A DNA stretch of 20,308 nucleotides from a virus. Shown one piece after another: positions 7,306 through 19,415 of the stretch. Position 1 is the stretch's first letter. Every line of letters begins with the position of its first letter. The stretch is from the IMG/VR virus record IMGVR_UViG_3300032291_001871, positions 1 through 20,308 of that record; one strand, 5' to 3'. The notes under the pieces are model-generated. The model searched no databases. It worked only from the letters and a program-made list of their open reading frames with translations, and was not told the DNA's origin. A program made the translations under genes and the position numbers.

Positions 7306-9816
7306 ATGGCAACGAGCAGCATGGTTTCTTCTATTTCTCAGGCCCCCTTGGGTCTGGATTTGTCGGACATTATTCAAGATGACACTCCCGCTTTGGAGAT
7401 CATGATTGAAAACCCGGACGATGTCGTTGTTGGCATTGATGGTCTTGAGATTGACCTGATGCCCGAAAACTTAATGGATGAGCCAGCCTTTGATGCAAAC
7501 TTGGCTGAGTTCATGGATGAGGGCGAGCTTGAGAAGATGGGCTCCGACCTGATTGCTGAAGTTGAAGCCGACATCAACTCGCGCAAAGACTGGGTTGAGA
7601 TGTACGTCAAGGGCCTCGACGTTCTTGGCATGAAGTACGAAGAGCGCACAGAGCCATGGATTGGTTCATGTGGCGTGTTCTCTACGCTACTCACTGAAGC
7701 GGCTGTGCGTTTTCAATCCGAGACCATCATTGAAACGTTCCCCGCTCAGGGCCCAGTGAAGACTCAGATCATTGGCGCGATTGACAAGTTGAAAGAAGAT
7801 GCTGCCGAGCGCGTTCGCACGGACATGAACTTCCAACTTGTGGACAACATGCCAGAGTATCGCCCCGAGCACGAGCGCATGCTGTTTAACTTGGGCCTTG
7901 CTGGCGCTGCGTTCAAGAAGGTTTATTTCGATCCGACACTGGGCCGTCAGACAGCTATTTTCTGTGGCGCTGAGGATGTGATTATTCCTTACGGCTCGTC
8001 CGGCGCACGTACTGCTGAGCGTGTTACCCATGTGATGCGCAAGACAAAGAACGACGTTAAGAAGTTGCAGGTTGCAGGCTTCTACCGCGATGTGGAGTTG
8101 GGTGAGCCAGTGATGATCCACAACGATGTGGAAAAGAAAAAGGCCGAAGAACAGGGCTACTCAGTCACCGACGATGATCGTTACCAGTTCTTGGAAATCC
8201 AAGTTGACTACGACATGCCCGGTTACGAGGATGAGGATGGCATTGCCCTGCCTTACATCGTGACGATTGATCGCGGCACCAGCAAAGTTTTGTCGGTGTA
8301 TCGCAACTGGTCAGAAGACGATCCAAAGAAACTCAAGCGCCAGCACTTTGTTCAGTATGACTATGTGCCCGGCTTCGGTGCTTATGGCTTTGGCTACATC
8401 CATTTGATCGGTGGCTATGCTCGCGCTGGCACATCATTGATTCGCCAACTGGTTGACGCCGGTACGTTGTCCAACTTGCCCGGTGGTTTGAAGTCCCGTG
8501 GCCTACGCATCAAGGGTGACGACACACCAATCTCTCCCGGCGAATGGCGCGATGTGGACGTTCCATCTGGCTCGGTGCGTGACAACATCATGCCCCTGCC
8601 ATACAAGGAGCCAAGCCAAGTTCTGGCCGCTTTGTTGGACCGCATCACAGAAGAAGGTCGTCGCCTCGGCTCCATTGCTGACATGAACATCAGCGACATG
8701 GGTGCCAACGCTCCGGTGGGTACGACTCTGGCTTTGCTCGAGCGTCAACTCAAGACTATGAGCGCCGTTCAAGCTCGTGTTCACTACTCGATGAAGCAAG
8801 AGTTCAAGCTCTTGAAAGACATCATCCGCGACAACACGCCGAGCGAATACGACTACACACCTGAAGGCGGCAAGCCAAGCGCCAAGCGTGAAGATTACGA
8901 CATTGTGGAAGTGATTCCAGTGTCCGATCCAAACAGCTCAACCATGGCCCAGCGGATCATGCAGTACCAAGCTGTGATCCAGTTGTCGCAGAGCGCTCCA
9001 CAAATTTATGACTTGCCTCAGCTGCACCGTCAGATGATTGAAGTGCTAGGCGTGCGCAACGCTGACAAGCTGGTCCCTGTTGATGACGACATGAAGCCAC
9101 GCGATCCAGTGTCTGAGAACATGGCCTTCTTGAATGGCAAGCCCACCAAAGCGTTCATCTACCAAGACCACGACGCTCACATTGCTGTTCACACGTCATT
9201 GATGCAAGACCCGTTGATGGCTGCACAGATTGGCCAGAACCCTCAAGCTCAGAAGATGATGTCCGAGATTCAGGCGCACATTGCAGAGCACTTGGCGTTT
9301 GCATATCGCAAGAAAGTTGAAGAGCAATTGGGCGTTCCAATGCCAGCTCCAGATGCAGACTTGCCAGAAGATGTCGAAGTGCAACTGTCTCGTTTGGTGG
9401 CCCAAGCTTCGCAGCAAGTGCTGGCCCAGAGCAAAGGTCAAGCCGCTCAACAGCAGGCCCAGCAACAAGCTCAGGACCCGCTCATTCAAATGCAGCAGGC
9501 CGAGTTACAGATCAAGGATCGCGACTCTCAAACCAAGGCTCAGAAGGTGCAAGGCGACTTGGCTGTCAAGCAAGCAGAGATTCAATTGAAGGCGCAAGAA
9601 ATTGCCAACCGTTCAGGCGAAGACCCAGCTTTGTCTGCAGCCAAGATTGAGCAGGAAATGATTCAAGCCCAGCAAGTTCACCAGTTGGACATGGCCCAGC
9701 GCCAGCAAGAGTTTGAACAAAAAATGAACCAGAAGCGAGAAGAAGCTGCTATGAAAACGCGGATCAAGCTGATGGAAATCGCAAACAAGCCGGCTGCTAA
9801 ATCGCCGGAGAACTAA
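7306..9816 (+). CDS. Portal protein (P22-like, large)
   Basis: The portal dodecamer forms the DNA channel at one vertex of the capsid and binds TerL. The product is 836 residues. Its length, place directly after terL and family pattern (RTEPWIGSCGVFSTLLTEAA, GFGAYGFGYIHLIG, and the 'RVHYSMKQEF' helix) agree with P22-type podoviral portals. The C-terminus (about 690-830) is a long glutamine-rich helical barrel, GQAAQQQAQQQAQDPLIQMQ followed by charged coiled coil, like the P22 barrel. ATG 7306 is preferred over TTG 7294 because TTGAGGA gives an RBS. The terL stop lies just upstream. The residue-based family call is from memory, not a search. Confidence 0.85.
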   Translation: MATSSMVSSISQAPLGLDLSDIIQDDTPALEIMIENPDDVVVGIDGLEIDLMPENLMDEPAFDANLAEFMDEGELEKMGSDLIAEVEADINSRKDWVEMYVKGLDVLGMKYEERTEPWIGSCGVFSTLLTEAAVRFQSETIIETFPAQGPVKTQIIGAIDKLKEDAAERVRTDMNFQLVDNMPEYRPEHERMLFNLGLAGAAFKKVYFDPTLGRQTAIFCGAEDVIIPYGSSGARTAERVTHVMRKTKNDVKKLQVAGFYRDVELGEPVMIHNDVEKKKAEEQGYSVTDDDRYQFLEIQVDYDMPGYEDEDGIALPYIVTIDRGTSKVLSVYRNWSEDDPKKLKRQHFVQYDYVPGFGAYGFGYIHLIGGYARAGTSLIRQLVDAGTLSNLPGGLKSRGLRIKGDDTPISPGEWRDVDVPSGSVRDNIMPLPYKEPSQVLAALLDRITEEGRRLGSIADMNISDMGANAPVGTTLALLERQLKTMSAVQARVHYSMKQEFKLLKDIIRDNTPSEYDYTPEGGKPSAKREDYDIVEVIPVSDPNSSTMAQRIMQYQAVIQLSQSAPQIYDLPQLHRQMIEVLGVRNADKLVPVDDDMKPRDPVSENMAFLNGKPTKAFIYQDHDAHIAVHTSLMQDPLMAAQIGQNPQAQKMMSEIQAHIAEHLAFAYRKKVEEQLGVPMPAPDADLPEDVEVQLSRLVAQASQQVLAQSKGQAAQQQAQQQAQDPLIQMQQAELQIKDRDSQTKAQKVQGDLAVKQAEIQLKAQEIANRSGEDPALSAAKIEQEMIQAQQVHQLDMAQRQQEFEQKMNQKREEAAMKTRIKLMEIANKPAAKSPEN

Positions 9817-13979: not shown

Positions 13980-14486
13980 ATGGGCATGCAAACTGACGTA
14001 TTGGCCGGTACGCTTGTTGAGAGCGGGTTTGTTTATACGAGTCGCACACGTGTAAGAGGTATCTCACTAAAAGGCGGCGCGAATGCTGGGCTGCTAGAGA
14101 TTTTTAGCACCACTGCCGCACCCGTATCCGCAACATATGCACGTTCTGGAACAACTGTTACCGTAACAAAAACAGGCCACGGGCTTTCAACTGGCAATCA
14201 GGTTGGTTTGTCTTTTGCTACCGGCACCGGCGGAACAGCAACAGATGGGAATTACGTAGTTACAAGACTGACTGCGGATACTTTTTCCATAACAGACATC
14301 AACTCCGGCAGCATCACCGCTGGCGCAGCTTGTAAGTATGGCGACCGTTGGATCATGACGTACCGCACTGTTGCTGGCGACACGTTTTTGAATTATTGGC
14401 TCTTACCCGGTGAAGGCATATTGGCCCCCAACGGTGTATATATGGTCATTACAAACTTAACGGCGGCTTCGATCTTTTATGGCTGA
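13980..14486 (+). CDS. Small virion protein with an inserted beta-domain (168 aa)
   Basis: ATG 13980 follows AGGAG by 7 bases. The host protein consists of residues 1-48 (TRVRGISLKGGANAGLLEIF) and 121-168 (WLLPGEGILAPNGVYMVITN). These two halves together resemble a small (about 100 aa) structural protein I know from podovirus-like phages. Residues about 49-120 are a separate beta-sandwich-like module: TVTVTKTGHGLSTGNQVGLS, then DGNYVVTRLTADTFSITDIN, with the 'GHGLsxGxxV' signature of an inserted phage-surface domain. The end overlaps the glycosyltransferase start by 8 bases. The insertion could add a surface or adhesin-like face, which is an inference. Confidence 0.75.
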   Translation: MGMQTDVLAGTLVESGFVYTSRTRVRGISLKGGANAGLLEIFSTTAAPVSATYARSGTTVTVTKTGHGLSTGNQVGLSFATGTGGTATDGNYVVTRLTADTFSITDINSGSITAGAACKYGDRWIMTYRTVAGDTFLNYWLLPGEGILAPNGVYMVITNLTAASIFYG

Positions 14487-15228
14487 AGAAACACGCCCCA
14501 TGGATGTTGCGGGTCGCAAACTGATGATTGCGATCCCTGCCTACGACGGCAAGTTGAACATCAAAACTTCGTTTGCCTTGGCCGATTTGGTGGTCAAAGC
14601 TTCGAAGTTTGGCGTTCAGGTGCAACTGTCACATCTATCGGGCTGTTCTCTCATCACCAAAGCCAGAAACGTTCTGGTCGCCAACTTCTTGGAGTCGGAC
14701 TGCACGGACTTTTTGTTCGTCGATGCCGACATCGTGGTGGACGCAGAGTCTGTGCTCCGCTTGCTAGCGCTGAGCACTGGCAAGGACATCACAGCTGGCA
14801 TGTACACCCGCCGCGCAGAGGATCGCAAGTTCTTCTTGGACATTTACATCGACCAGAACAACACCCTTGAGTTCGATTCTCATGGGATGTTGCGCGTTGA
14901 GAACGTGGCCACGGGCTTCATGATGATCCAGCGCCATGTGCTAGAGAAAATGGTGGCCAACCACCCCGAGTGGACGTACTTCAACGACTTCTACAACCGC
15001 AACGAGAGCGCTTTGTTTGACTTTGAGTTGAGCAATGGCCAGTACATCGGTGAAGACTACACGTTCTGCAAACGCGCCCGCGCAGATGGCTTTACGGTGT
15101 TTGTTGATCCAGAGATTACCTTGCCGCACGTTGGTTCTCAAGAGTACCACCGCAGCTTCAAAGAGTCCGTGCTAATGCCGCTGATCGAGCAGCACTGCAC
15201 GCCTAAACTGAAAGTCGCTAATGGCTAA
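14479..15228 (+). CDS. GT-A glycosyltransferase
   Basis: The 249-residue protein is a GT2-like, nucleotide-sugar-dependent transferase. The motifs run in the usual order: N-terminal LMIAIPAYDGKL (residues 15-26), donor-binding DxD in LFVDADIVVD (79-88), TGFMMIQRHVL (145-155), the acceptor/base region YIGEDYTFCKRA (189-200), and a late histidine in LPHVGS (215-220). All catalytic elements are present. Phages carry such enzymes to glycosylate their own DNA or virion proteins, or host surface sugars. The place in a virion gene block favours a structural target, an inference only. ATG 14479 overlaps the preceding stop. ATG 14500 is possible. Confidence 0.85.
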   Translation: MAEETRPMDVAGRKLMIAIPAYDGKLNIKTSFALADLVVKASKFGVQVQLSHLSGCSLITKARNVLVANFLESDCTDFLFVDADIVVDAESVLRLLALSTGKDITAGMYTRRAEDRKFFLDIYIDQNNTLEFDSHGMLRVENVATGFMMIQRHVLEKMVANHPEWTYFNDFYNRNESALFDFELSNGQYIGEDYTFCKRARADGFTVFVDPEITLPHVGSQEYHRSFKESVLMPLIEQHCTPKLKVANG

Positions 15229-15475
15229 GAAAACCCCATCCCTTGCTGTCGGTCGTGGTGAAAAGTTGCCTGTGTCCAAGGGTGCGGGCTTAACTGCCAA
15301 GGGTCGTGCAAAGTACAACGCTGCCACTGGTAGCAACCTCAAAGCTCCGCAGCCTGAAGGCGGTAAGCGCAAGGACTCGTTCTGCGCACGCATGTCGGGC
15401 ATGCCCGGTCCCATGAAAGACGAGAAGGGCAAACCAACTCGTAAAGCCGCGTCACTGGCGCGATGGAAGTGCTGA
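15221..15475 (+). CDS. Small basic Lys/Gly-rich protein (84 aa)
   Basis: The product starts MAKKTPSLAVGRGEKLPVSK, then GAGLTAKGRAKYNAATGSNL, and ends ARWKC with a terminal cysteine. It is strongly basic and low in hydrophobic residues. The central 'SLAVGRGEKLPVSKGAGL.AKGRAKYN' pattern is one I recognise from a conserved phage family (probably the DUF6321 type, not confirmed). Its ATG overlaps the glycosyltransferase stop by 8 bases. It is probably a virion or DNA-interacting protein. Function unknown. Confidence 0.75.
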   Translation: MAKKTPSLAVGRGEKLPVSKGAGLTAKGRAKYNAATGSNLKAPQPEGGKRKDSFCARMSGMPGPMKDEKGKPTRKAASLARWKC

Positions 15476-15476
15476 C

Positions 15477-15725
15477 ATGGACTTGATGGTTTGGAATGTT
15501 CTGTTGTCGTTTGCTTCCGCAGCTTTGTTGCTGTGGGTTCGCGTGTCGCACGAAGAGGTGAAGCGCCTAAGCATTTTGCTCAGCAAGACTCGCGAAGAGC
15601 ACGCCGAGAAGTTTGTGACCAAAAACGACATGCATGCCGACATCAACCGAGTGATTACTCGTCTTGATCGCCTTGAGAGCAAGATAGACGACTTTATGAA
15701 GGAACAACGCAGTGCCCTCAGTTAG
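15477..15725 (+). CDS. Small membrane protein with coiled coil (82 aa)
   Basis: Residues about 4-20 (MVWNVLLSFASAALLLW) form one hydrophobic membrane segment. It is followed by a charged helical coiled coil with heptad spacing, FVTKNDMHADINRVITRLDR then LESKIDDFMKEQRS. This N-terminal-anchor-plus-coiled-coil design is frequent in phage holin-associated, spanin-like or virion membrane proteins. I recognise the 'VTK.D.HADINR' pattern as a phage family of unknown function. GGAAG lies upstream. The next gene overlaps it by 14 bases. No catalytic residues are visible, so holin or lysis roles are only possibilities. Confidence 0.7.
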   Translation: MDLMVWNVLLSFASAALLLWVRVSHEEVKRLSILLSKTREEHAEKFVTKNDMHADINRVITRLDRLESKIDDFMKEQRSALS

Positions 15726-16305
15726 CAAGAAACAACACAATTTCATGGCGGCGGTGGCCAACAACCCAGCCTTTGCCAAGAAAGCAGGCGTCCCACAGTC
15801 CGTGGGAAAAGAATTTTCCAATGCGGACAAGGGCCGCAAATTTTCAAAAGGTGGCGACACTATGGCTAAAAAAGATTCCGAATTTGACAGCGACGTTGCT
15901 ACGGTAAAACGTGCCCTGTACAAACCAGCTGGCGAGGCGGCGCTGTACAGTCGCGAACGCGGATTTGGTCCAAGTATGGCGCGTCGTCGTCTTGAGGACC
16001 GAGGTGTTGATGTTCGCGCTTTGGCGGCCAACGAACAAAACCCAGATGATCTTGGCAGTTACAAAAAAGGTGGCAAAGTGAAACACTCAGACGTTAAGAT
16101 GGGCAAGGGCATGATGCAAAAGGCCGTGAACAAACACGAAGGCCGTTTGCACAAGGGCGAGCCCATGACCAAGCTGGCCAAAGGCGGCATGGCTTCCAAG
16201 ATGGGCGCAGTAAAAACTGCAGCCCCAAGCCGTGATGGTATTGCCACAAAGGGCAAAACTAAAGGCACAATGGTGAAAATGGCCCGTGGTGGCAAAGCTT
16301 GCTAA
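15712..16305 (+). CDS. Basic Lys/Gly-rich protein with DUF3008-like N-terminus (197 aa, GTG start)
   Basis: GTG 15712 is used because GAAGGA lies 8 bases upstream. Residues 1-47 (SVSKKQHNFMAAVANNPAFA, then KKAGVPQSVGKEF) match the phage family often named DUF3008. Residues 51 on (MAKKDSEFDSDVATVKRALY) look like a second, separate unit. An AAAGG lies 10 bases before its ATG at 15862, so a shorter internal product is possible. The C-terminal part is lysine/glycine-rich with repeated KGG and AKGG motifs, including DGIATKGKTKGTMVKM, and ends GGKAC. Likely a fusion of two small phage proteins. Function unknown. Confidence 0.75.
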   Translation: MPSVSKKQHNFMAAVANNPAFAKKAGVPQSVGKEFSNADKGRKFSKGGDTMAKKDSEFDSDVATVKRALYKPAGEAALYSRERGFGPSMARRRLEDRGVDVRALAANEQNPDDLGSYKKGGKVKHSDVKMGKGMMQKAVNKHEGRLHKGEPMTKLAKGGMASKMGAVKTAAPSRDGIATKGKTKGTMVKMARGGKAC

Positions 16306-16314
16306 GGAGCTGAC

Positions 16315-16506
16315 ATGAACAAGGCAATGATTGAACAGGCTATGCAGGAAGCTGCTGACGCCAAGATGCGCAAGAAAACCGAGAAGGCATACAACGATGC
16401 CAGCACAACGCCTCCAGCTCCTATGGTCAAAAAGGCCAAAGGCGGCAGCGTGACTCGTGCTGACGGTTGCGTAATCAAAGGCCACACTCGCGGCAAGATG
16501 GTGTAA
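16315..16506 (+). CDS. Small basic motif protein (63 aa)
   Basis: MNKAMIEQAMQEAADAKMRK forms an N-terminal helix, followed by a linker with PPAPMV and a C-terminus KKAKGGSVTRADGCVIKGHT ending RGKMV. The 'RADGCVIKGHTRGKMV' ending matches, with changes, the 'DGIATKGKTKGTMV' motif of the gene before it and the 'ADGIAKQGKTKG' of the gene at 18091. AAGGAG precedes the ATG. Small, basic, with no membrane segment. Function unknown. The shared ending is treated as a finding. Confidence 0.75.
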   Translation: MNKAMIEQAMQEAADAKMRKKTEKAYNDASTTPPAPMVKKAKGGSVTRADGCVIKGHTRGKMV

Positions 16507-16508
16507 GC

Positions 16509-16757
16509 ATGAGAGCCAGTCGCGGCATGGGTGCCATCTCTCCTTCCAAGATGCCCAAGGGCGTGAAAAAAGCACGCCGGGACGATACCGATTTCACTGA
16601 GTACGCTGCTGGCGGAGAGGTGGGGTTGTATGCCAACATCAACGCCAAGAAAAAACGTATTGCTGCTGGCTCTGGTGAGAAGATGCGTAAGCCCGGCTCC
16701 AAAGGCGCTCCGACTGCTGACGCTTTCGTTCAATCCGCCAAGACGGCAAAGAAGTAA
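16509..16757 (+). CDS. Small basic conserved phage protein (82 aa)
   Basis: ATG 16509 (MRASRGMGAISPSKMPKGVK) is preferred to the upstream ATG at 16467, which would overlap the preceding gene. The start follows the stop of that gene by 2 bases. The middle is acidic (RDDTDFTEYAAGGEVG). The C-terminal half, GLYANINAKKKRIAAGSGEK then MRKPGSKGAPTADAF, is a strongly conserved pattern I know from many phages, of unknown function. It is basic and may bind DNA or virion parts. There is no RBS of good quality before the start, so it may be coupled to the previous gene. Confidence 0.75.
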   Translation: MRASRGMGAISPSKMPKGVKKARRDDTDFTEYAAGGEVGLYANINAKKKRIAAGSGEKMRKPGSKGAPTADAFVQSAKTAKK

Positions 16758-16760
16758 ACC

Positions 16761-17696
16761 ATGACCACTACCGGCTCCACCCTTTTCAATATGGATTTCA
16801 CGGAGATCGCTGAAGAGGCGTGGGAGAGGGCTGGCCGTGAGATGCGTTCGGGCTATGATCTGCGTACGGCTCGTCGCTCAATGAATCTGATGACCATTGA
16901 GTGGCAGAGCAAGGGCATCAATATGTGGACGATGGAGCAGGGCATCATTAACCTGACTCCGGGTTTGGCAACTTACGCCCTTCCTACGGACACCATTGAC
17001 CTGCTCGAGCATGTTATCCGCACTGGCTCCAACACTGCTTCAACGCAAGCTGACTTGACCATTACGCGCATCAGCGTCTCCACCTATGCGACTATTCCAA
17101 ATAAGCTTCAGCAAGCTCGCCCAATTCAAGTTTGGATTCAGCGGCTTTCTGGCGAGGTTAATCCAACTGCGTCGTTTCTTGATGGAGCCATCACCTCCAC
17201 GGACACAACGATCACGCTTGACTCGGTGGTTGGACTAGCCGGATCGGGCTTCATTCGCCTTGACTCGGAAGACATCTACTACACGTACGTCACCGGCAAC
17301 GTGCTTGGTGGCGTGTTCCGTGGCCAGAACAATACAACAGCAGCTGCGCACACAGACGGCACTGCCGTGTATGTGCCTCAGCTCCCTGCGGTAACCGTTT
17401 GGCCAACACCAGACAACTCCACTCCATATCAGTTTGTCTACTGGCGTCTTCGCCGGGTGCAAGATGCTGGTGCTGGTGTGGAGACTGCCGACATGAACTT
17501 CCGCTTCCTTCCGGCTTTGGTGTCGGGGCTGGCATACCATATTGCAGTCAAAGTCCCCGAGCTGATGCCTCGCATTGAGATGCTCAAGCAGATGTACAAC
17601 GAGACTTTTGAGATTGCCGCTGGCGAAGATCGTGAGAAGGCAGCTGTGCGGTTTGTGCCTCGCGCTATGTTCATTGGAAGCGGCGGAGGCTACTGA
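16761..17696 (+). CDS. Putative head-tail connector protein with inserted beta-domain (311 aa)
   Basis: The N-terminal helical part (EIAEEAWERAGREMRSGYDL, residues about 15-35), the LATYALPTDTIDLLEHVI region, and the C-terminal helical half (FLPALVSGLAYHIAVKVPEL) fit the connector/adaptor type of podovirus-like phages. Residues about 131-208 (TDTTITLDSVVGLAGSGFIR, then YYTYVTGNVLGGVFRGQNNT) are a separate beta-rich module set into this fold. The 'VTVWPTPDNSTPYQFVYWRL' strand resumes the original protein. Its TGATG end overlaps the following gene by one base. The RBS is weak (AAGAAGTAAACC). Connector role is an inference from order and pattern. Confidence 0.7.
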   Translation: MTTTGSTLFNMDFTEIAEEAWERAGREMRSGYDLRTARRSMNLMTIEWQSKGINMWTMEQGIINLTPGLATYALPTDTIDLLEHVIRTGSNTASTQADLTITRISVSTYATIPNKLQQARPIQVWIQRLSGEVNPTASFLDGAITSTDTTITLDSVVGLAGSGFIRLDSEDIYYTYVTGNVLGGVFRGQNNTTAAAHTDGTAVYVPQLPAVTVWPTPDNSTPYQFVYWRLRRVQDAGAGVETADMNFRFLPALVSGLAYHIAVKVPELMPRIEMLKQMYNETFEIAAGEDREKAAVRFVPRAMFIGSGGGY

Positions 17697-18079
17697 TGGG
17701 CAATCGCTTCGCATCCGGCAAAATAGCGATTGCGGAGTGTGATCGTTGCGGGCAGCAGTACCAACTGAAGAAGTTGCGCACCGAGATCATCAAGCAACGC
17801 AAATACGAGCTGCTGGTGTGCCCGGAGTGCTGGGACCCAGATCAGCCGCAGTTGATGCTTGGCACATTCCCCGTGGATGACCCACAAGCTCTACGCAATC
17901 CGCGTAGGGATACAACGTACGTTACCTCGGGTGTAAACGTCAACGGCAACTTGTCTGGTGGTTCACGAGACATTCAGTGGGGCTGGGCACCTGTGGGTGG
18001 GGCCAGCGGCTTTGATGACGGACTCACACCGAACTACTTGGTAATTCGGACATATATTGGTACAGTCACCATATCTTGA
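17696..18079 (+). CDS. Zinc-ribbon virion-associated protein (127 aa)
   Basis: Residues 15-18 (CDRC) and 42-45 (CPEC) form a CxxC-23-CxxC zinc ribbon: AECDRCGQQYQLKKLRTEII and ELLVCPECWDPDQPQ. It is followed by FPVDDPQALRNPRRDT and a Gly/Asn-rich, beta-like C-terminal part (VNVNGNLSGGSRDIQWGWAP). The stop/start overlap TGATG links it to the connector gene. A zinc ribbon beside connector genes is a known arrangement in phages of this type, role uncertain. It could bind DNA or stabilise the neck. No other domain recognised. Confidence 0.75.
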   Translation: MGNRFASGKIAIAECDRCGQQYQLKKLRTEIIKQRKYELLVCPECWDPDQPQLMLGTFPVDDPQALRNPRRDTTYVTSGVNVNGNLSGGSRDIQWGWAPVGGASGFDDGLTPNYLVIRTYIGTVTIS

Positions 18080-18090
18080 AGGAGCTTAAA

Positions 18091-18285
18091 ATGGCATTCA
18101 CAAAATCAGCAGATGGCATTGCCAAACAAGGCAAAACCAAGGGCAAGAACTTGGGCGACAGCGGCCCCACATCCAAAGAGATGATGGGCGGCAAACCCGG
18201 CAAAAGCGGTGGCGGCAAAACCAACGCGGACATGAAGACCATGGGTCGCGGTCTGGCTAAAATCGCAGCACAGAAACGAGGCTAA
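18091..18285 (+). CDS. Small basic Lys/Gly-rich motif protein (64 aa)
   Basis: ATG 18091 follows AAGGAG by 7 bases. The upstream TTG (18076) would overlap the RBS and is not preferred. The protein, MAFTKSADGIAKQGKTKGKN, continues LGDSGPTSKEMMGGKPGKSG and ends RGLAKIAAQKRG. It is very basic, with no cysteine. Its N-terminal SADGIAKQGKTKG matches the motif in the genes at 15712 and 16315, but here at the start of the protein instead of the end. Probably a small virion or DNA-interacting protein. Confidence 0.75.
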   Translation: MAFTKSADGIAKQGKTKGKNLGDSGPTSKEMMGGKPGKSGGGKTNADMKTMGRGLAKIAAQKRG

Positions 18286-18287
18286 TC

Positions 18288-18554
18288 ATGGCAACCTTCA
18301 GCAAAAAAATGATGGGCAAAGAAGTTGGTGATGCCAAAGTCTATGCCAAGCCGCACACGATGGATGGTAAGGTTGTGAAACCTCAGACCAATCCCGGCAA
18401 AGAGCCAAACCAAAGTCGCGTTGACACACTGAACATGAGTGTTGGCGCAATGAGCAACAAGCCAGATGGCATGCCTACCAAGACCAGCGGCATCAAAGTG
18501 CGTGGTACAGGTGCGGCCACCAAAGGTTTGATGGCACGGGGCCCAATGGCCTAA
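18288..18554 (+). CDS. Small basic conserved phage protein (88 aa)
   Basis: The product begins MATFSKKMMGKEVGDAKVYA and is low in hydrophobic residues, with a Pro/Asn-rich centre (KPQTNPGKEPNQSRVDTLNM). Its C-terminus, SGIKVRGTGAATKGLMARGP then MA, is a conserved ending I recognise from many phages (usual form 'RGxGAATKGxxARGPMA'). GAGG precedes the ATG. It is 2 bases after the previous gene. Function unknown. Its place between the zinc-ribbon and adaptor genes suggests a virion assembly protein. Confidence 0.75.
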   Translation: MATFSKKMMGKEVGDAKVYAKPHTMDGKVVKPQTNPGKEPNQSRVDTLNMSVGAMSNKPDGMPTKTSGIKVRGTGAATKGLMARGPMA

Positions 18555-18563
18555 AGGTTTCCC

Positions 18564-19415
18564 ATGACAATGACGTACGCCCAACTTGTTACTGCGGTAC
18601 AGGATTACACGCAGAACACGTTCGACACCACGACGATCAATACGTTGATCAAGCAGGCGGAGCAGCGCATCTATAACACGGTGCAGATTGCCAACTTGCG
18701 AAAGAACGTCACGGGCGTACTGTCAACCGGGAACAAGTACTTAGCCTGTCCAGAGGACTTCCTCTCGACCTACAGCCTTGCGGTGTACCCGTACAATGCA
18801 ACGACTGCCACCGGTGTGTCAGGCGCAAAAACCATTGTTGTGGCCAGCGCAACTGGCATTGCGGCAGGGCAGCAGGTCACCGGTACAAACATTGGAACCA
18901 ACGCAATTGTGCGCAGTATCAACGGCACAACGGTAACCCTGACGGTTGCAAATAGCGGCACCGTCAACGGTGCTGTGGTGTTTCAAGGCGATTACCTTTA
19001 CTTGCTCAACAAGGATGTGAACTTCATTCGTGAAGCTTACCCTTTGAGCGCGGAACAGTCTGAGCCTAAGCACTACGCCATCTTTGGGCCGCAGTCATCC
19101 AACGTCAATGAGCTGTCGTTCATTCTGGGCCCTACGCCAAACGCCAACTACTACGCTGAGCTGCATTATTACTACTACCCAGAGTCGATTGTGACCGCTA
19201 CAACAACGTGGCTGGGCGACAATTTCGACACTGCTTTGTTGTACGGTACTTTGTGCGAAGCCGGTGTGTACATGAAGAGTGCTCCAGAAGACGGCATGTA
19301 CAAGACGTACCAAGAACGGTACGTTCAGGCAATTGCACTGCTCAAGAACTTGGGTGACGGCAAGCAGCGGGCCGATGCATACCGCGACGGTCAAGTTAGG
19401 GTCGCAGTATCATGA
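18564..19415 (+). CDS. Adaptor (neck) protein, SU10-type, with inserted beta-domain (283 aa)
   Basis: The N-terminal helices (TYAQLVTAVQDYTQNTFDTT, then INTLIKQAEQRIYNTV, residues 4-40) and the C-terminal helices (ALLYGTLCEAGVYMKSAPED and following, 'YQERYVQAIALLKNLGDG') match the phage adaptor protein family (SU10 type) that joins portal and tail. Residues about 80-141, GAKTIVVASATGIAAGQQVT, then 'GTNAIVRSINGTTVTLTVAN', are a beta-strand repeat module of the kind seen in phage surface domains, set between LAVYPY and DYLYLLNKD. AAAGG lies 6 bases before the ATG. The stop overlaps the following ATG (ATGA). Confidence 0.8.
   Translation: MTMTYAQLVTAVQDYTQNTFDTTTINTLIKQAEQRIYNTVQIANLRKNVTGVLSTGNKYLACPEDFLSTYSLAVYPYNATTATGVSGAKTIVVASATGIAAGQQVTGTNIGTNAIVRSINGTTVTLTVANSGTVNGAVVFQGDYLYLLNKDVNFIREAYPLSAEQSEPKHYAIFGPQSSNVNELSFILGPTPNANYYAELHYYYYPESIVTATTTWLGDNFDTALLYGTLCEAGVYMKSAPEDGMYKTYQERYVQAIALLKNLGDGKQRADAYRDGQVRVAVS

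Follow-up and report, generated by a model that had tools for sequence, protein, structure and literature searches.

An uncultured tailed phage from freshwater has three genes in its head-neck block that each carry an inserted β module absent from close relatives. We found them in a stretch of 20,308 bases, referred to below in its entirety as the window (positions 1 to 20,308 of the IMG/VR virus record IMGVR_UViG_3300032291_001871), in which terminase-like, portal, scaffold-like, capsid and neck genes follow one another in that order. Two of the genes, g2 and g3, encode SU10-type head-tail adaptors, and the third, g1, encodes a small β protein. We propose, with a probability of roughly one half, that exposed hairpins of the fibre-dock region of such adaptors would serve again and again as ports at which small barrels, probably glycan-binding, are taken up; these would provide weak multivalent binding beside the tail fibres. 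The genes and modules are as follows.

13980..14486, + strand: g1, a 168-residue small all-β virion-cluster protein with a core of residues 1–46 and 119–168
14118..14333, + strand: module 1, g1 residues 47–118, replacing a hairpin turn of ~4 residues
16761..17696, + strand: g2, a 311-residue head-tail adaptor protein of the SU10 family
17151..17381, + strand: module 2, g2 residues 131–207, between the stretches RPIQVWIQR and PAVTVWPTPD
18564..19415, + strand: g3, a 283-residue head-tail adaptor protein of the SU10 family
18795..18992, + strand: module 3, g3 residues 78–143, replacing a turn of 2–10 residues in the β (fibre-dock) region

Filled and empty insertion sites

Relatives were drawn from IMG/VR and from annotated phage records, and full-length homologues of each core were aligned; a site is termed filled when the module is present and empty when only a short turn is found. 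The modules are 66–77 residues long with sharp boundaries in all three genes, and the length of the insert takes one of two values. The g1 site holds either 3–6 residues (32 rows of the alignment) or 72–75 residues (38 rows), with the exception of one 46-residue row whose start falls inside the module. The g2 site holds 0–1 residues (72 rows) or 77–81 residues (126 rows), apart from four rows with 11–19 residues, and the g3 site holds 2–10 residues (103 rows) or exactly 66 (88 rows). After dereplication at 90% core identity, the filled and empty representatives number 19 and 22 for g1, 20 and 30 for g2 (plus 4 intermediate), and 13 and 69 for g3. An empty site is a short turn between conserved stretches, as in SVVFRDGSA-SGTV-LLTLN for g1 and SLAVIDT-NGD-YVYLLNKD for g3. 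In phage DSL-LC04 the homologues of g2 and g3 align over their entire length and have neither segment, and the matches of 12 g3 relatives in the genome collection span 384–714 bases, too short for core plus module. When the 21 genes of the window were scanned against the same relatives, inserts of at least 60 residues were seen in g1, g2 and g3 only.

These alignments bear out the preliminary description of this DNA, which had proposed that conserved folds are interrupted at residues 49–120, 131–208 and 80–141 of the genes at 13980, 16761 and 18564. The gene positions are as given there, the segments lie at most two residues from the boundaries set by the homologues (47–118, 131–207 and 78–143), and a clean gap is present at each of the three sites in homologues that do not all carry the segments. 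Gapped homologues, the predicted structures of g1 and g3, and the core trees all support interruption by insertion. The description of the modules as rich in Thr, Gly and Val holds for g2 (39% in the module vs 22% in the core, p 0.007) and g3 (50% vs 21%, p 1.5e-5), and is weakest for g1 (46% vs 32%, p 0.08).

Host proteins and module folds

The adaptors of SU10 and P-SCSP1u form dodecamers whose subunits combine a helix bundle with a fibre dock and, at the C-terminus, an embracing part; in both phages the long tail fibre is held by the dock (PMC9509320; PMC10575957). g3 is an adaptor of this family by Pfam, sequence and predicted fold: it passes the gathering cutoff of PF24175 (68.9 bits vs 27, E-value 1e-18) and matches the sequence of the solved SU10 adaptor 7z47 (1.1e-7). 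Its AlphaFold2 model, with a mean predicted local distance difference test score (pLDDT) of 86.1 and values of 90–96 over module 3, superimposes on the adaptor chains of Pa223, VP1 and SU10 with Z-scores of 17.0, 15.6 and 14.7, respectively, and the helix bundle and β dock are recovered with Z-scores of 14.5–17.0 over 190–201 residues. The strands of the model span residues 46–204, between the N- and C-terminal helices, with module 3 inside this span, which by this reading places the insert in the fibre-dock region. g2 belongs to the same family by sequence: it also passes the PF24175 cutoff (32.9 bits vs 27, E-value 1.2e-7, in two stretches), and its empty homologue of 221 residues in DSL-LC04 is annotated as 'Pam1 adaptor protein'. 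A profile comparison of g2 with g3 is weak (probability 36%, single-comparison E-value 0.00037), and the resulting alignment places the g2 insert at another loop than the g3 insert. g1 is a small β protein related to phrog_28102, which the empty homologues of its core match with a best E-value of 9.1e-9; its AlphaFold2 model is all β, with a mean pLDDT of 94.6.

Module 1 is a member of the endosialidase β-barrel family (PF12195), by sequence and by predicted fold. Nine of the ten members of the module 1 family match PF12195 (best E-value 2.9e-6), PDB entry 4hiz is matched by profile at 2.1e-7, and residues 48–122 of the model superimpose on the barrels of the phi92 and K1F endosialidases with Z-scores of 8.4–8.8 over 72 residues and a root mean square (r.m.s.) deviation of 2.0–2.1 Å. 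Taken alone, the module of the window matched only E1_FCCH, weakly (0.018), and its membership in PF12195 rests on its relatives and on the 4hiz profile; the weak E1_FCCH matches were rejected as an indication of function and read as a shared barrel fold only. K1F binds polysialic acid at three sites, one of them the barrel, which is also a hotspot of host discrimination (PMC12632334). PHROG profiles found relatives of all three modules, those of module 1 lying in the tail protein family phrog_457. Two tail proteins of this family carry two copies of the module each (locus L290, 1881–5165, 1095 residues; locus L319, 1871–4330, 820 residues), and at loci L024, L026, L288, L289 and L275–L284 the module 1 site of tandem g1-like genes of ~165 residues holds a diverged form of the module. 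A tblastn search of phage records gave no match to module 1, a result that the low-complexity filter may affect, as it can hide such queries.

Module 3 is predicted to form a small β-barrel of the FCCH/ATPase-like kind mounted on the hairpin of the core. Residues 76–143 of the model match Bridgette 8eci (Z-score 8.7), the Mystique tail tube (8.5) and the LKA1 tailspike (7.6); several phage barrels and Uba1 align over the whole module with Z-scores of 5.7–8.7, of which those below 8 may mean a common arrangement only. Its sequence relatives are tail-fibre proteins of cyanomyoviruses, with 49–60% identity over 62 residues. Polyubiquitin profile hits of module 3 were discarded as repeated short chance matches, each with a domain E-value above 500. 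Module 2 has relatives among the tail-fibre PHROGs (phrog_11439, 3.7e-6) and two weak tblastn matches in phage records, and a profile search yielded no solved relative for it.

The preliminary description had also held that the modules differ from each other and result from repeated independent insertion. The second part is supported by the lack of a profile match between the three families, by the different loops and by the largely independent occupancy of the sites (see below), and the duplication of one module into three genes is rejected at the sequence level, as the profile comparisons of the three families were insignificant. The modules are not all unrelated, however: the models of modules 1 and 3 both superimpose on one stretch of Uba1 (5knl chain A, residues 183–256 and 179–257) and on F/V-ATPase barrels, and the two modules thus appear to share a fold despite the lack of any sequence signal between them. 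This argues for related folds recruited more than once rather than for unrelated modules.

History and selection of the modules

Across the loci, the combinations FFF, EFF, FFE, EFE, FEE and EEE were seen (F, filled; E, empty), and the occupancy of the three sites is largely independent. Core trees were built without the inserts, by quick methods and with midpoint rooting, and are indicative only. On these trees the filled state changes once for g1, three times for g2 (minimum 52 with shuffled labels) and four times for g3 (minimum 53 with shuffled labels). The filled g3 rows form four groups nested among empty ones, for which repeated gain or transfer is a simpler account than one gain followed by about ten losses, a count read off the tree. 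The same module was thus, as these trees indicate, gained or exchanged several times at the g3 site within the family. Two empty loci, L028 and L030, lack the g3 module and yet are 88–90% identical to the window core; L028 has 93% of its g3 core in common with the filled locus L154. In both, the 20 residues after the site are closer to the empty lineage (85–90% vs 60–65%), which suggests that recombination carried the empty state in together with its flank. The synonymous divergence of module 3 is ~2 times that of its core for the same pairs, consistent with a history partly separate from that of the g3 core.

The modules are under purifying selection as maintained folded domains: omega is 0.13, 0.11 and 0.05 for modules 1, 2 and 3 and 0.085, 0.05 and 0.06 for the respective cores. 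A hypervariable module engaged in an arms race is not supported by these values. Such strong selection would also be expected of purely structural modules that have no adhesion role and brace the neck through contacts with adjacent subunits, the following ring or the rim of the capsid; many assembly components of phages do contain small barrels, among them a tail tube and a capsid-associated protein. Against bracing, the modules come and go in relatives with cores up to 93% identical and the sites vary largely independently, which argues that no module is generally needed for assembly; we regard this explanation as rather unlikely. The same patchy occupancy would suit neutral passengers that exposed hairpins can tolerate and that recombination passes on although they bring no benefit, as would the four inserts of 11–19 residues at the g2 site, which look like eroded or replaced modules. 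The omega values of 0.05–0.13, the high predicted order and the repeated gain at the same site speak against such passengers and make them very improbable. The short g2 inserts are found at loci L274, L265, L308 and L311 and are possibly deletion remnants.

Modules of other kinds stand at other loops in relatives, which points to the adaptors as repeat acceptors. In six g3 homologues (L056, L050, L314, L308, L311 and L289) the g3 site is empty and a different module, of ~85 residues and rich in Gly, Ser and Thr, follows the motif YYYPESIV; profiles relate it to PHROGs of tail fibres, baseplates and virion structural proteins, and tblastn gave no match to these second-site modules in phage records, where the low-complexity filter may hide such queries. 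A third insertion loop is found in the g3 homologues of L227 and L222, in which a 45-residue insert (SFNIGTVYTIISVGTTDFTAIGA...) with no PHROG profile relative precedes GVPKYYSVW. In HTVC027P (L162), a relative of module 2 occupies a different loop of the g2 homologue (7998–8918), and the next gene (8903 onward) has a weak module 2 relative. HTVC027P is grown on Pelagibacter HTCC1062; the relatives gathered here included no cultured phage with all three modules.

Two further genes of the window were noted. The gene at 14479–15228, which overlaps the end of g1, is glycosyltransferase-like, with a weak Anp1 match below the cutoff. It is present in 26 of the 64 loci with a filled module 1 site and in 4 of the 33 empty ones (Fisher p 0.005, kinship ignored); as 38 filled loci do not have it, a role as required partner of module 1 is ruled out and the association remains a lead. 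The gene at 15712–16305 encodes a Lys/Gly-rich protein showing length differences of 29–37 residues with respect to relatives, near residues 60–75 and 120.

A putative binding layer on the neck

In the arrangement that we propose, a compact β module is spliced into a β-hairpin turn of each of the adaptors g2 and g3 and of g1, and the host fold would stay intact. By analogy with homologous structures, g2 and g3 would form 12-fold rings adjoining the portal. As the β region of the adaptor is the tail-fibre dock in these homologues, the hairpin modules may sit on the outer face of the neck, in up to 12 copies per ring; a hairpin tip could accept a domain with adjacent ends and leave the ring undisturbed. 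Twelve domains of 66 residues would occupy an estimated ~100 cubic nm, vs ~50 cubic nm for a stretch of the DNA channel 4 nm wide and 4 nm tall, so that the modules would not fit the channel and an outside location is favoured. Each module may bind surface glycans or other polymers weakly, the repeated copies adding avidity beside the tail fibres, and the modules may pass between related phages as cassettes, through recombination. The membership of module 1 in the endosialidase family, together with the tail- and fibre-protein relatives of modules 1, 2 and 3, fits such a binding role. For g2 and g3 only, homology supports the earlier suggestion of a decorated neck; the adhesion or receptor function suggested with it is plausible.

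Several points weigh against this proposal. The outward orientation of the modules would follow from homology; small barrels also occur in F/V-ATPase and Uba1, where they have no adhesion role, and the fold alone is not proof of function. Many receptor-binding tips are hypervariable, which these modules are not. The relatives were picked by similarity to the query, which biases the frequencies.

The position in the dock also suits a module of g3, and perhaps of g2, that adapts the neck to one specific tail fibre or whisker: in SU10 and P-SCSP1u the long tail fibre is carried by the adaptor dock, and filled relatives tend to differ from empty ones in the gene order downstream. Fibres were typed by motif and most filled loci remained untyped; among the typed loci both types of fibre N-terminus occur with both states (empty with type A, 6; empty with type B, 4; filled with A, 11; filled with B, 2). 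Among these loci the g3 module was thus not strictly tied to a single type of fibre, and we consider a fibre adapter quite improbable.

Head-tail adaptors are regarded as conserved connectors, and adhesion is ascribed to the fibres. Should adaptor rings take up barrels of a binding type again and again, as we favour, attachment of abundant uncultured freshwater phages to hosts or surfaces may owe something to the neck as well, a contribution that predictions of host range from fibres alone would miss. Filled and empty relatives with cores up to 93% identical offer a natural comparison for the effect of one inserted domain. A more far-reaching view, which we hold to be doubtful, is that the adaptor ring of a widespread group of freshwater phages might be a docking collar, in which several dock hairpin tips would accept interchangeable glycan-binding barrels and form a receptor-binding layer of their own, apart from the tail fibres and reconfigured by recombination.

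It is already known that phage proteins, those of the neck among them, shuffle domains and that tailspikes contain barrel domains; a search of the open-access literature found no report in which hairpin tips of head-tail adaptors accept domains recurrently. When compared with the SU10 adaptor family (PF24175; SU10 gp11 and the Pa223, VP1, GP4 and cyanophage A4 chains), g2 and g3 pass the Pfam cutoff and the g3 model aligns along its length, the difference being the extra barrel at a hairpin of its β region; the best-matching solved chains have ~200–230 residues and align to g3 over ~190–200 residues, i.e. without the module. The small barrels of LKA1 gp49, phi92 gp150 and Bridgette 8eci share the fold of module 3 over 64–66 residues at 1.7–2.4 Å and belong to other host proteins, with Z-scores of 6.5–8.7 that may reflect a common arrangement only. 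Module 1 resembles the PF12195 barrel of phi92 and K1F in both sequence and fold, but is carried by a small non-enzymatic protein instead of a tailspike enzyme. Finally, domain mosaicism is well described in phages, where homologous domains are common to unrelated proteins and have been exchanged recently, including in neck passage structures (Smug et al. 2023, PMC10684548). The case described here differs in that three neighbouring genes act as acceptors with defined hairpin sites, and in that the head-tail adaptor is a repeat acceptor for several module families at several loops.

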